DNA of 39,845 nt from IMG/VR virus record IMGVR_UViG_3300025674_000110, positions 1-39,845 of that record. One strand, 5' to 3'. This DNA comes from a virus. The position numbers and the translations under genes are program-made. Each line of letters opens with the position of its first letter. The stretch's first letter is position 1. The notes under the pieces were generated by a model that had not been told where the DNA came from, did not search any database, and saw only the letters and a list, made by a program, of their open reading frames with translations. Positions 13,072-25,295 of the stretch are shown piece after piece.

Positions 13072-13100
13072 GAATTTTGACCTTTAATTTGGAGACTACT

Positions 13101-13603: not shown

Positions 13604-13735
13604 GGATTTTGGATTTGTTTGGCATGAAAATTGCAGCGACTATTTTCCACGAGTTTGGCATGGAAGATGCACAGAAAAAAATCCCGGAAAAATTTTTTGG
13701 ATTTTGGATTTCGGGCATGGAAGTTGCAGTGAGTC
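13599..13735 (+). repeat. Imperfect ~40-bp direct repeat
   Basis: Unit 1 (about 13599-13640) and unit 2 (about 13693-13734) both read TTTTTGGATTTTGGATTT, then GGCATG, then (A/G)A(A/G)(A/T)TTGCAG. They are about 94 bases apart. The repeat begins at the U-tract of the terminator, so a segment of the terminator's downstream flank has been duplicated. Confidence 0.65.
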
Positions 13736-13878
13736 AGATTGAATACAGACCCCCCGAAGAGGTGTATCAAGATGAATACAGAACGACCGAGGACCGGGAG
13801 CGCCGTCAGATTGAGTACACCCCCCCGAAGGGGTGGGGTCACATTGACTACACCCCCCGAAATGAGGGGAGATTTTGA
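13624..13878 (+). CDS. Doubtful repeat-encoded protein
   Basis: An 84-residue frame from ATG 13624 with no good ribosome-binding site. Its second half is made of an imperfect repeat (IEYRPPE, DEYRTTE, IEYTPPK, IDYTPRN) that comes from the DNA repeat described separately. It may be a short real protein, or a frame kept open by chance in repetitive DNA. No family is recognised. Confidence 0.25.
   Translation: MKIAATIFHEFGMEDAQKKIPEKFFGFWISGMEVAVSQIEYRPPEEVYQDEYRTTEDRERRQIEYTPPKGWGHIDYTPRNEGRF
13738..13869 (+). repeat. Three-copy ATTGA-TACA-CCCCCCGAA repeat with hairpin potential
   Basis: Units at 13738-13758, 13810-13830 and 13843-13869 share ATTGA(A/G/C)TACA followed by a run of six or seven C and GAA. 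Each is followed by G-rich bases (GAGG, GGGG, GAGGGG), so each can fold into a small C-tract/G-tract hairpin. Each unit also encodes an (I)(E/D)Y-x-P motif in one frame. Confidence 0.6.
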
Positions 13879-14006: not shown

Positions 14007-14057
14007 AAAACTGCGAAATTGAAACCGTTTTGAACCCTTACTTTGGAGACTAAAATT

Positions 14058-17970: not shown

Positions 17971-18004
17971 ATTTTGAATTGGTTTAACCATTGGAGACTT
18001 TACT

Positions 18005-19409: not shown

Positions 19410-19444
19410 TTTTATAGAATTAACTTAACTAGGAGACTTTTATT

Positions 19445-19789: not shown

Positions 19790-20120
19790 TTGGGTAAGAA
19801 TAAGTGAACGAATGCCCACAAAAGAAGACTGTTGCCCGAATGGGTTAGTTATAGTAACCGCTGAAAATGAGGCAAGTTGGTGGACTGTACATTACACACG
19901 TAAGAAGAGTTATAAATGGGAAGCAGCAACACACTGGCTGGATAGCGAATTACCACCGTTGCCCACCAAGCTACGAACTGTTGAAGATGTTGTAAAAGAC
20001 CTATTAAAGTTGTACGAAACCTATGATTACGGTGATTGCTATGGGGCGTTTGACGATTTAATGGAAGATTTGAAACAAATTACAAACCCTAAATATATTA
20101 GGAGACCAAAAAGATGTTAG
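19782..20120 (+). CDS. DUF551-like protein
   Basis: 112 residues. The first 65 have the DUF551 layout: WVRISERMPTKE, then VIVTAEN, a WWTVHYTR strand and ATHWLDSELPPLP. DUF551 proteins are common in phages and of unknown function. The C-terminal 45 residues form an acidic helix pair (TVEDVVKDLLKLYETYDYGD). It overlaps both neighbours by 7-8 bases. Confidence 0.7.
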   Translation: MSNWVRISERMPTKEDCCPNGLVIVTAENEASWWTVHYTRKKSYKWEAATHWLDSELPPLPTKLRTVEDVVKDLLKLYETYDYGDCYGAFDDLMEDLKQITNPKYIRRPKRC

Positions 20121-20329
20121 ACTATGAACTTACGGAAAAGATTACAAAAGCAGTTGATGACCTTGATTGCCCTACCGTACACCTTATGCTTGAACAAGCA
20201 GAACTGACGTATGTACGGCAGGTACTTGATGATGCACACTTTACACTTAGGTATGTGAAGAAACAGTTGCAAGAAGGACAAACCGTTAGAGCCTACAATG
20301 CCCTACAAGGTGTTAGAGCTTTGAGGTAG
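20114..20329 (+). CDS. Hypothetical helical 71-residue protein
   Basis: ATG 20114, with GGAGACC upstream inside the previous gene. All helical: DYELTEKITKAVDDLDCPT, YVRQVLDDAHFTLRYVKKQL, RAYNALQGVRALR. No family is recognised. Confidence 0.6.
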   Translation: MLDYELTEKITKAVDDLDCPTVHLMLEQAELTYVRQVLDDAHFTLRYVKKQLQEGQTVRAYNALQGVRALR

Positions 20330-20857: not shown

Positions 20858-20991
20858 AAATAAATTTTATTCTTTTTGCCTTCTTTTGTTATTCGCCCGT
20901 ATTGCTTCCCAATGTGTTCAATGAATACAATAGCTTACGCGGGCAACCTTTTAGTCAACTTTACTCTAACTACATTGTGGAGACTTTTATT

Positions 20992-22430: not shown

Positions 22431-22823
22431 ATGACAAAACAAACAACCACTATAAGCAAGAAAGTACCTTGTGATGTAGGTTCTTTACGTGTTGCCGAGC
22501 GTGTACATTACCGTGGCAAACATGGAGCACATAAGTTTCATTACAGGTCGGATAACGATGAGCCCATGTACCTGTGGTGTGTTATTAACGAATACGGACA
22601 ACAACAGTTTGTATTTGCTGAGAACCACAAAGGTGCTAAGGAACAAAGCGTAGATAGCCGTTTGTACCCTTATGGTAGTAACGAGCGAGATGAATACTAT
22701 AAGAGCCTAACGGTTTTTAATGTACCTTACATTGTGCGAGGATGGGGACAACACCTGTTTTTGTATGATGAACGTGATGAAAAAAGTTTACAGGTTAATT
22801 TTGAAGAACAAAAAGTATTTTAG
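22431..22823 (+). CDS. Hypothetical 130-residue protein
   Basis: ATG 22431 with TTAGGAGATTAACT upstream. Beta-rich with many aromatic and charged residues (RVHYRGKHGAHKFHYRSDND, MYLWCVINEYGQQQFVFAEN). No motif is recognised. Confidence 0.6.
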   Translation: MTKQTTTISKKVPCDVGSLRVAERVHYRGKHGAHKFHYRSDNDEPMYLWCVINEYGQQQFVFAENHKGAKEQSVDSRLYPYGSNERDEYYKSLTVFNVPYIVRGWGQHLFLYDERDEKSLQVNFEEQKVF

Positions 22824-22836
22824 GAGACTACTAAAA

Positions 22837-23256: not shown

Positions 23257-23673
23257 ATGGCAAAAGCAACTACTACTACTACCAAGAAGACCGTTACCAA
23301 GAAAGCACCTGCTACTAAGAAGAAGCCTGCTGCTAAAGCAACTACCAAGGTTGCCAATAAGACAACCCCTAAGAAAGCCACCAGCAACAGAGGACCAAGT
23401 GTACGCGAGCGTATTTTGCTTTTTGTTGCTGAAAATGGCGAGAGTAGTGCGAGGCAAATTCAGCTAGGTATTGGCTTGAGCCACGGTTGTAAACCTACCT
23501 GCGACCAGGAAGTTAGTTTTGGGCATTTAACGGTTGAAAGCCACCCAACTGAAAACGGTGGTGAAGGTCCTGCCATGTACAAGATTAGCAAAGAAGGTAA
23601 GAAGAAAGTTACCCAAATTAAAAAGGGTAATGAGTACAACTTACGTGGTGCTAAAGAAGAAGCTAGTAAGTAA
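23257..23673 (+). CDS. Basic-tail winged-helix-like DNA-binding protein (paralogue B)
   Basis: 138 residues. A histone-like tail of about 45 residues rich in K, T, A and P (KKTVTKKAPATKKKPAAKAT) precedes a winged-helix-like domain: RERILLFVAENGESSARQIQ, IGLSHGCKPTCDQE, a wing at ESHPTENGGEGPAMYKISKE and GKKKV. It shares LSHxCxxTC, the G-G-x-x-x-AM wing and the basic tail with the 13101 protein. It has its own promoter and is followed by a structured region. A DNA-binding regulator or nucleoid protein is inferred. Confidence 0.7.
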   Translation: MAKATTTTTKKTVTKKAPATKKKPAAKATTKVANKTTPKKATSNRGPSVRERILLFVAENGESSARQIQLGIGLSHGCKPTCDQEVSFGHLTVESHPTENGGEGPAMYKISKEGKKKVTQIKKGNEYNLRGAKEEASK

Positions 23674-23694
23674 GTTAGGTTTTATGTGCGGTTG

Positions 23695-23903
23695 ACCTGC
23701 ACCTTTTATGTATTACACATGCTCTTGCATATGGCGGTGAATGCAGGGTGTAGGTAAATGAAATTTTATTACCCGTTAATTTGTTGGTCCGTGGAGGGTA
23801 GTAAAGAGTCTCCCATTTGGTAACCTTGAACCTGACTTACCTAGAAGAACAGCATTAGTAGTGTAACGGACCTGTGACCCTGCTATGTTGTTCTTCTTTT
23901 TTA
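23695..23903 (+). ncRNA. Candidate structured RNA / attenuator with pseudoknot
   Basis: The 264-base gap between two genes holds nested complementary segments. P1: 23695-23703 with 23747-23755 (9 pairs, one G-U). P1a inside it: 23726-23730 with 23741-23745. P2: 23786-23792 (GGTCCGT) with 23866-23872 (ACGGACC), 7 perfect pairs. P3: 23793-23796 with 23810-23813. P4: 23819-23823 with 23837-23841. P5: 23843-23855 with 23885-23897, 13 pairs including one G-U, followed by a T-run. The 3' strand of P2 lies in the loop of P5, so P2 and P5 form a pseudoknot or exclude each other. This looks like a structured leader or an sRNA ending in a terminator. It resembles no riboswitch or tRNA I can name. Confidence 0.5.
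23843..23902 (+). terminator. Long-stem intrinsic terminator
   Basis: A 13-bp stem, AGAAGAACAGCAT with ATGTTGTTCTTCT (one G-U), has a 29-base loop and is followed by further T residues to 23902. It ends 35 bases before ATG 23938, so it can end the 23257 transcript or attenuate the downstream genes. Confidence 0.7.
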
Positions 23904-23937
23904 TGTTTATGAATATACACAACCACTAGGTACTACT

Positions 23938-24270
23938 ATGAAGATAGTAAACAAACAACCTGTACACATTAGTGATAACACCAAGTTAGCTAAGTTTATT
24001 AGACGTAAGGCAGGAAAGACCATATTCCGTTGTACGTTTACTAAACGAACCACCGGCGAGCAACGTGTTATGGTTTGCCGACTAGAAGTAGCAAAGAACA
24101 TTAAAGGTGTTGGGCAACCTTTTGATGCAGAAGACCACCAATTACTTACCGTGTGGGATATGCAAAAACAAGCCTATCGTATGATTAACCTACAGGCTGT
24201 TACTGAGTTGAAAATACGCGGTACGGTTTATTCTGGGAGAGTACTTAACCAGCTATTACAAGGAGCATAA
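23938..24270 (+). CDS. Conserved phage SH3-like beta-barrel protein
   Basis: 110 residues. FRCTFTKRTTGEQRVMVCRL, GVGQPFDAEDHQLLTVWDMQ, then KQAYRMINLQAVTELKIRG match a common phage family ('f.F.KRttGe.R.M.crlgv.k...G.G..yd...h.lltV.D..k.ayR.inL..i..l'). Members are annotated as SH3-fold or hypothetical. Function unknown; a nucleic-acid or host-protein contact is possible. It is the first gene after the structured region. Confidence 0.7.
   Translation: MKIVNKQPVHISDNTKLAKFIRRKAGKTIFRCTFTKRTTGEQRVMVCRLEVAKNIKGVGQPFDAEDHQLLTVWDMQKQAYRMINLQAVTELKIRGTVYSGRVLNQLLQGA
24257..24264 (+). promoter_or_regulatory. Candidate CsrA site at the ribosome-binding site of the 24275 gene
   Basis: TACAAGGA, the CsrA core, overlaps the GGAG used by ATG 24275. 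Confidence 0.35.
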
Positions 24271-24274
24271 GAGT

Positions 24275-24475
24275 ATGCAGTACGAAATTAGCAAGAGCGG
24301 CCCACAAGGAAATGCCTTTTTTATTATGGGGCAGACCAGTAGAATTTTACGGGCTATGGGTAAAACCAAAGAAGAAATTGAAACAATCATGGATGATATG
24401 AAAAGCAGTAACTATACCCACCTTTGTGAAGTAGCAGAGCGTGAAAGTTTAGGTATGATTACCTTTGTTGATTAA
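24275..24475 (+). CDS. Conserved phage hypothetical, 66 residues
   Basis: MQYEISKSGPQGNAFFIMGQ, then LRAMGKTKEEIETIMDDMKS and a C-terminal strand. The 'GNAf.iMG.v...L...g...eei......m...dY..ll' pattern occurs in small phage and plasmid proteins. Function unknown. Confidence 0.65.
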   Translation: MQYEISKSGPQGNAFFIMGQTSRILRAMGKTKEEIETIMDDMKSSNYTHLCEVAERESLGMITFVD

Positions 24476-24509
24476 CCCTTTTTTACATTTAACCAATGGG
24501 AACCCCACT

Positions 24510-24740
24510 ATGGCAACTTTAGTAGATGAAAAAATTAGGATACTTACAGAAATCGAAGGGTATGATGATCCTATTGAGCTTTGTGAGGAAGTATTTAATG
24601 ATGGGTGCTGTCCAGGCATTTGTATGAATGAAGATTGTGAGAGCACCTACAGCTACGAACCTGACAGTACCGACGGTTGGTGCGACGAATGCCAAACCAA
24701 CACAGTTAAAAGCCTTATGATACTGCTAGGTGTTATATGA
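24510..24740 (+). CDS. Small zinc-binding phage protein
   Basis: 76 residues from ATG 24510. DGCCPGICMNEDC, then GWCDECQTNTVKSLMILLG: a five-cysteine pattern (CPGIC...C ... CxxC) seen in many environmental-phage proteins, with 'GWCdeCgtntVkS...L.g'. Zinc binding is likely; function unknown. It overlaps the next gene (ATGA). Confidence 0.7.
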   Translation: MATLVDEKIRILTEIEGYDDPIELCEEVFNDGCCPGICMNEDCESTYSYEPDSTDGWCDECQTNTVKSLMILLGVI

Positions 24741-24829
24741 CAGACGACCAAATATGGGAAGCCCTTTTTACCGCTTGGTTAATGGAAGTGCTTTACCTAC
24801 ATGATGAATGGCTGTATAAATACAGCTAG
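24737..24829 (+). CDS. 30-residue coupled protein, last gene of the rightward module
   Basis: ATG 24737 overlaps the previous stop. It encodes MTDDQIWEALFTAWLMEVLY then LHDEWLYKYS, one acidic amphipathic helix. It ends 17 bases before a strong terminator. Not recognised. Confidence 0.5.
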   Translation: MTDDQIWEALFTAWLMEVLYLHDEWLYKYS

Positions 24830-24846
24830 AACCCTGTTTTAAGAAC

Positions 24847-24881
24847 GCCACATGCTGATACCCCAGTGTGTGGCTTTTTTT
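24847..24881 (+). terminator. Rho-independent terminator ending the rightward module
   Basis: GCCACA (24847-24852) pairs with TGTGGC (24869-24874), followed by seven T. Its loop contains GATACCCC, which is complementary to GGGGTATC at 24958-24965. Confidence 0.85.
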
Positions 24882-25076
24882 GTGACCCTACCCAATGCGA
24901 AGCCTCTCAGATCGCATTTGAGGCTTGTTTGTTTGGTAAGGGTACTAAACCACACTTGGGGTATCTAAGTGGCTTCAGATGCGATCTGACATGCCAATTA
25001 TGCGACTAGCCTACTGTAGCCATTGTTTGTAGCTACCTACAGTCTTCGCTAACGTGTCGCACTAACTAGGTAGGGT
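24857..25076. repeat. Convergent intergenic region packed with inverted repeats
   Basis: No gene is seen between 24830 and 25103. It holds perfect inverted repeats: CAGATCGCAT (24908-24917) / ATGCGATCTG (24979-24988), ACCCTACC (24885-24892) / GGTAGGGT (25069-25076), GATACCCC (24857-24864) / GGGGTATC (24958-24965), ACTGTAG (25013-25019) / CTACAGT (25037-25043). It also has the 15-base palindrome TCAGATGCGATCTGA (24975-24989). Several pairs interleave rather than nest. It may be a bidirectional terminator, a replication or recombination site, or a structured RNA. Confidence 0.6.
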
Positions 25077-25103
25077 AAATGTACCTTATTTTATTTGCGA
25101 GCT

Positions 25104-25295
25104 CTAGGCAGGGTCTATTTTGGTCCTAATACTTCGCACGTTTTTGGCGTACTTACGCCTAACCATAATGGTTTCGGTGTGGGTTAAAACATCGTCGCAG
25201 TAAAACATAACATCAACGGGTACAAGGTCATCAGGGTGGCAACCTAGTACCTCGTTACTATTATTTTGTTTTCTTTTTAACTCTTCCTCGTCCAC
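25104..25295 (-). CDS. Hypothetical 63-residue protein with overlapping GTG start
   Basis: GTG 25295 is preceded by AAAGGAGGT at ideal spacing, although it lies inside the gene at 25261-25425 in another frame. The protein opens MDEEELKRKQNNSNEVLG and has a beta-like C-terminus (VPVDVMFYCDDVLTHTETIM). It is the last gene of the leftward early operon. No family is recognised. Confidence 0.55.
   Translation of the reverse strand: MDEEELKRKQNNSNEVLGCHPDDLVPVDVMFYCDDVLTHTETIMVRRKYAKNVRSIRTKIDPA

Follow-up and report, generated by a model that had tools for sequence, protein, structure and literature searches.

The locus and its setting

What does a self-complementary, gene-free stretch of viral DNA do when it ends in a transcription terminator and lies between two small genes? 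The original prediction placed such a stretch at 23695-23903 and described it as a structured RNA with a pseudoknot and a built-in terminator that might act like an attenuator or a riboswitch. In this study, the locus was followed up computationally in the window, which is the entire IMG/VR virus record (39,845 nt). The virus is, judged by its genes, a tailed phage, because the portal and terminase proteins match PHROG profiles (phrog_146 and phrog_2, respectively) and the window also encodes a DNA polymerase of family A and a primase-type protein. Structural and replication genes occupy the minus strand, and a module of small genes lies on the plus strand at about 13.1-24.8 kb. The RNA locus is found near the end of this module, in an intergenic gap of 264 nt (23674-23937) between a 138-aa Lys-rich gene ending at 23673 and a 110-aa WYL_2-like gene starting at 23938. 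As predicted, the stretch is gene-free: 23696-23906 contains no open reading frame of at least 50 aa. The two flanking genes are:

23257..23673, plus strand: gene for the 138-aa protein, Lys-rich and possibly winged-helix in part (ORF; RBS aaggagccttattATG), 5' of the RNA
23938..24270, plus strand: gene for the 110-aa protein, the first after the terminator (weak Pfam WYL_2 match; phrog_2267)

The WYL_2 match of the 110-aa protein scores under the Pfam curated cut-off, and the 138-aa protein has no Pfam or PHROG match. The upstream gene had been called a winged-helix paralogue; this label is weak, as the two proteins compared align at 23% (E 1.3) and no Pfam or PHROG match backs it. The 138-aa gene is the probable source of the RNA transcript. 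Elsewhere in the window, a 32-nt unit in which GAA comes after a C run is present in four imperfect copies, spaced 33-39 nt apart, in the intergenic stretch 13729-13865.

A compact fold that ends in an intrinsic terminator

The stretch 23695-23903 reached a minimum free energy (MFE) of -66.4 kcal/mol (z -4.3), and none of 200 shuffles was as stable; its reverse complement was less stable (z -2.3 vs. -4.3 on the plus strand). The fold within the predicted limits is significant, but the fold reaches 28 nt further 5', to 23667. Its elements are:

23667..23903, plus strand: structured RNA domain with terminator, revised extent (MFE -81.5 kcal/mol; z -4.93; 0 of 300 shuffles)
23670..23682, plus strand: 5' arm of closing helix P0, GTAAGTTAGGTTT (folds), overlapping the stop codon TAA of the upstream gene (23671-23673)
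23695..23755, plus strand: hairpin P1 (fold; alone z -4.33)
23765..23805, plus strand: hairpin P2 (fold; alone z -1.7)
23828..23840, plus strand: 3' arm of closing helix P0, GAACCTGACTTAC (folds)
23843..23897, plus strand: intrinsic terminator hairpin with 13-nt arms (alone -24.3 kcal/mol)
23897..23902, plus strand: T run of the terminator (sequence)

P0, a 13-bp helix that encloses P1 and P2, was absent from the original prediction. Without P0 and the terminator, the remaining segment (23695-23842) was unremarkable (z -1.67; 15 of 300 shuffles); with P0 but still without the terminator (23667-23842), z was -3.86 and 1 of 300 shuffles did as well. When the plus-strand module was cut into 150 overlapping windows of 237 nt, none surpassed 23667-23903 in energy excess, although the one that starts at 24772, in the next structured stretch, drew level. 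A scan of the whole record with 180-nt windows, which are too short to take in the RNA whole, did not single out the locus (z -0.8 and -1.3); its significance therefore hinges on the full extent being covered. On these folding models, we are fairly confident that a compact orphan RNA fold is real.

The predicted 13-bp terminator stem was found: the arms 23843-23855 and 23885-23897 are 92% complementary, and a T run comes next. A stable hairpin with a T run directly after it is what defines an intrinsic (Rho-independent) terminator, and the hairpin alone gave a z of about -5.5 to -5.7. In the folding models, the element reads as a constitutive terminator. It does lie between the upstream gene and the last genes of the module, as had been claimed, even if "winged-helix paralogue" is a poor name for the former. 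On the plus strand of 23258-25236, no sigma-70-like promoter site (at least 9 of 12 positions) was detected by a scan for sites of the sigma-70 type only.

A predicted kissing pair between P2 and the terminator

The predicted pseudoknot rests on a perfect 7-bp pairing, and its two strands are indeed exact complements:

23786..23792, plus strand: kissing arm GGTCCGT in the P2 loop (complementarity, loop energy)
23866..23872, plus strand: kissing arm ACGGACC in the terminator loop (complementarity, loop energy)

The second strand had been placed in the terminator loop, which holds in part, as the MFE structure leaves just part of ACGGACC in the loop. Opening the weak inner pairs of both loops costs 3.0 kcal/mol and the new helix gains 15.3, leaving a net gain of -12.3 kcal/mol if tertiary penalties are disregarded; this value was reached by 1 of 300 shuffles. 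Seven-base complementarity alone says little here, because several other such pairs occur in the same 301 nt. The terminator and the pseudoknot had also been described as competing or interlocking. No competition was seen, as the terminator retains its middle stem as well as its 13-bp base in the kissing conformer. Together with P0, P1 and P2, the kissing pair may be part of a compact, stable body.

Among 1473 terminator-like hairpins (the window and 128 other loci; 129 sequences, 2.2 Mb), this kissing pair was the strongest. A gain of -12 or better was found in 2 of 4419 shuffled cases, so the best of about 1,500 chance trials is expected near this gain. For a locus named beforehand, the kissing p is about 0.0005, before correction for the roughly 40 terminator-like hairpins in the window. 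Kissing between terminator loops and upstream loops was not enriched in this set (a gain of -8 or better in 15 of 1473 real vs. 47 of 4419 shuffled cases), and the architecture is therefore not a class common to the relatives.

Search for relatives

The claim that the RNA fits no known class agrees with the Rfam 15 search, which gave no match at gathering score in the window; the best sub-threshold match scored 18.5 bits (E 0.67), where 45 bits are required. Rfam includes a C4 family, and the RNA, with no match to any Rfam family, does not match that of the c4 antisense RNAs either. A blastn search of phage GenBank entries returned two short chance matches and nothing else. In the open-access literature covered on phage sRNAs and C-rich sRNAs, no description of this RNA was found.

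Searches with a single protein, be it the upstream protein, the primase or the terminase, brought up no relatives. When thymidylate synthases were aligned and used instead, 80 loci were obtained, 8 of which share several core genes, and a primase alignment built from these led to 44 loci; with overlaps removed, the thymidylate synthase and primase sets comprise 46 distinct records. None of the 46 has a DNA match to the RNA longer than 24 nt, and short matches (up to E 10) occur in 7. A covariance model of the RNA found nothing in the 46 family records, in 75 other loci or in the one MAG contig searched; the model was built from a single sequence and is thus of short reach, and when run on the window as a positive control it scored 301 bits. 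The two-loop pattern was not found in IMG/VR. A 17-nt junction pattern turned up in one place (contig L155), which was dismissed as chance: the RNA model does not match there, and the sequence next to the RNA has no recognizable relative in the contig apart from 35 aa, in another part of it, that match the upstream 138-aa protein (E 6e-4). A z-score scan of the relatives' intergenic stretches (579 of 698, the window not among them) gave three top hits, none of which resembled this RNA when folded. One related virus (L115) has a long hairpin of high stability (z -8.6) at 19999-20188, some 300 nt past a tRNA match.

The closest relative found is L154 (JANQNF010000005.1), a 74.9-kb contig filed under the archaeal MAG PL23a_bin.95; it is either a mis-binned phage or a hint at the host. 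Its primase is 66% identical, its polymerase 61%, and its glycosyltransferase and radical-SAM protein 60%. The inverted module is retained in L154, and the WYL_2-like gene lies close to the end of the module, directly after coding sequence; the RNA is absent, and the other small module genes tested were not recognizable in L154 by tblastn. Related phages share the WYL_2-like gene at 47-60% identity (e.g., L154 17867-18139 and L149 5478-5822), and it was found in four other IMG/VR records and one MAG contig. In the four of these five whose upstream flank was read (L149, L151, L153 and L154), coding sequence and not the RNA stands directly before it; the fifth, L152 (IMG/VR), was covered by the covariance model search only. 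Because the gene directly follows coding sequence in relatives, the RNA, as far as these flanks tell, is not an old leader of the WYL_2-like gene.

A second strongly structured, palindrome-rich stretch lies in the window at 24840-25090, between convergent operons (24875-25100: z -5.2 on the plus strand and -4.7 on the minus strand). A terminator hairpin at 24847-24874 and another hairpin further on have loops with 9 nt of complementarity, the second loop lying at about 24957-24965. This stretch was considered on the minus strand as a second copy of the architecture and rejected: the loop complement (GATACCCCA/TGGGGTATC) is real, but the likeness is superficial, because each hairpin is an inverted copy of the other and the two are fully paired in the MFE structure.

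Is the terminator conditional?

Read as an attenuator or a riboswitch, the RNA would be a cis-acting conditional terminator that controls the WYL_2-like gene together with those after it. The terminator lies about 35-40 nt before the start codon and the scan gave no promoter-like match, so the downstream genes may need read-through; in a read-through transcript, the start region of the downstream gene is predicted to be paired, and upstream coding sequence can, in the folds of the nascent chain, pair with the five nucleotides at the top of the terminator's 5' arm. However, no upstream segment held the base of this arm beyond its first two bases in these folds, the terminator stem persists when the kissing pair forms, and the WYL_2-like gene of the relatives has no such leader. 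An attenuator or riboswitch is quite unlikely in these models because no stable, mutually exclusive antiterminator was found; forbidding the terminator helix costs 24.8 kcal/mol, the margin by which the terminator wins. Leader-peptide attenuation was also considered and set aside: a 21-codon open reading frame (23759-23824) overlaps P2, but this length is expected by chance. What stands of the original prediction is the structured fold with its kissing pair and terminator, over a larger extent and with no Rfam match, and not its regulatory reading.

Candidate pairing with ribosome-binding sites

The junction after P2 reads AGAGTCTCCC and carries a heptamer that is complementary to a motif placed before several start codons of the module:

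23807..23813, plus strand: AGTCTCC, candidate anti-RBS segment at the P2/P0 junction, exact complement of GGAGACT
13091..13097, plus strand: GGAGACT, candidate target before ATG 13101
14045..14051, plus strand: GGAGACT, candidate target before ATG 14058
17993..17999, plus strand: GGAGACT, candidate target before ATG 18005 (duplex -21.3 kcal/mol)
19432..19438, plus strand: GGAGACT, candidate target before ATG 19445
20979..20985, plus strand: GGAGACT, candidate target before ATG 20992 (duplex -21.2 kcal/mol)
22823..22829, plus strand: GGAGACT, candidate target before ATG 22837

The predicted unpaired probability of AGTCTCC is 0.31-0.92, so the junction should be partly accessible. AGTCTCC occurs twice on the plus strand of the window, one of these occurrences being in this RNA. 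GGAGACT occurs 10 times in the window vs. 2.8 expected, and none of 100 shuffles had as many. As an RBS motif it precedes 6 of 23 starts of the plus-strand module vs. 0 of 26 minus-strand starts (Fisher p 0.007), where the match was spotted after the fact, the start list was partly hand-picked and the 26 minus-strand starts were chosen by an ad hoc heuristic (SD-like score of at least 4).

Over 24 plus-strand starts, the whole RNA gave a mean duplex energy of -15.5 vs. -13.0 +/- 0.7 in shuffles (0 of 200 as good) and bettered all 78 other plus-strand segments; these 24 include 16944, which has no start codon, and 18008, a misplaced start whose correct position is 18005. The 23-start set leaves out 16944 and has 18005 in place of 18008. 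In a control, 3 of 193 genome windows with CTCC and 3 of 46 with TCTCC at the same place bound the starts equally well; a good part of the effect is therefore simple anti-Shine-Dalgarno pairing. In L154, which has no such RNA, GGAGACT is also absent from the 22 kb examined, which fits targeting but is one case.

Possible functions

The reading that we prefer, tentatively, is a lineage-specific phage sRNA that derives from the 3' end of the winged-helix transcript and pairs with the phage's own RBSs. An RNA of about 200-240 nt would be cut from the end of this transcript or started inside it, and would end at the constitutive intrinsic terminator, which would also part the winged-helix transcript from the last module genes. 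P0, P1, P2 and the kissing pair would form its compact, stable body, and the junction after P2 would present a UCUCCC-type sequence, AGUCUCC. Its pairing with GGAGACU in the RBSs of several module genes may lower their translation. A stronger version, in which this one RNA switches off in trans a multi-gene regulon of phage genes tagged with the RBS heptamer GGAGACU, is doubtful. Against an sRNA stands that no homologue was found. The sigma-70-like scan also gave no promoter of its own, which counts against it unless it is derived from a 3' UTR. The sRNA function is put forward as a hypothesis with moderate statistical support in these models, and an ordinary operon end is almost as likely.

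Such an operon end, a possible reading as well, would consist of a strong terminator and a stable 3' UTR that protects the winged-helix mRNA; the remaining structure would serve no function of its own, and the anti-RBS match would be due to chance. Much of the significance already comes from the terminator hairpin alone (z -5.5), no conservation of the RNA was found in the relatives searched, and such kissing pairs are no more frequent there than in shuffles. However, with P0 the domain remains significant even when the terminator is left out, and the kissing pair at this locus was reached by 1 of 300 shuffles, as given above. These two features, P0 and the kissing pair, could instead be functional in a stand-alone phage ncRNA with another role, such as protein binding, a sponge for host RNA or an assembly scaffold. 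The closed, compact fold would suit such a role, and kissing-loop phage RNAs of unknown role exist, namely ROOL and GOLLD (passages of PMC12286853); this reading is on the unlikely side, as the RNA is much smaller than those two, has no known homologue or partner and matches no Rfam family. Very improbable is a DNA-level element, i.e., a replication or recombination site. Inverted repeats and the palindrome-rich stretch 1 kb downstream are consistent with it, but the plus-strand RNA is markedly more stable than its minus-strand counterpart and a T run follows the hairpin on the plus strand only.

If the pairing is real, one RNA and a common RBS tag would govern a whole set of phage genes. This would be a simple post-transcriptional switch, and other phages could be searched for repeated RBS heptamers with complements in intergenic RNAs. 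If it is not, what remains is a normal operon end whose 3' region is unusually stable.

Comparison with known systems

Attenuators and riboswitches share with this RNA a long, structured, leader-like form and an intrinsic terminator before a gene; here, however, no mutually exclusive antiterminator was found, and relatives that have the downstream gene lack the RNA in the flanks read. ROOL and GOLLD are likewise phage-encoded and have kissing loops (passages of PMC12286853), but they are far larger, widespread and multimeric, whereas the present RNA has no Rfam match. The c4 antisense RNA of phages P1 and P7 is a phage RNA that binds around the RBS of a phage mRNA (passages of the review PMC12197685); c4 has one target mRNA, in contrast to the several candidate targets here. 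The candidate sRNA also resembles the C-rich (UCCC) sRNAs, such as LhrC of Listeria and RsaE of S. aureus. According to the passages drawn on from PMC4132741, LhrC binds upstream of the start codon through UCCC motifs in loops and in a single-stranded stretch, and the likeness extends to the intrinsic terminator and to a UCUCCC-type segment between hairpins that is complementary to the Shine-Dalgarno sequence. LhrC and RsaE are bacterial RNAs with tested targets, whereas this is a phage RNA with candidate targets and no relatives found; compared with them, it has a longer match, to the phage's own RBS heptamer, and a closed domain with a kissing pair.
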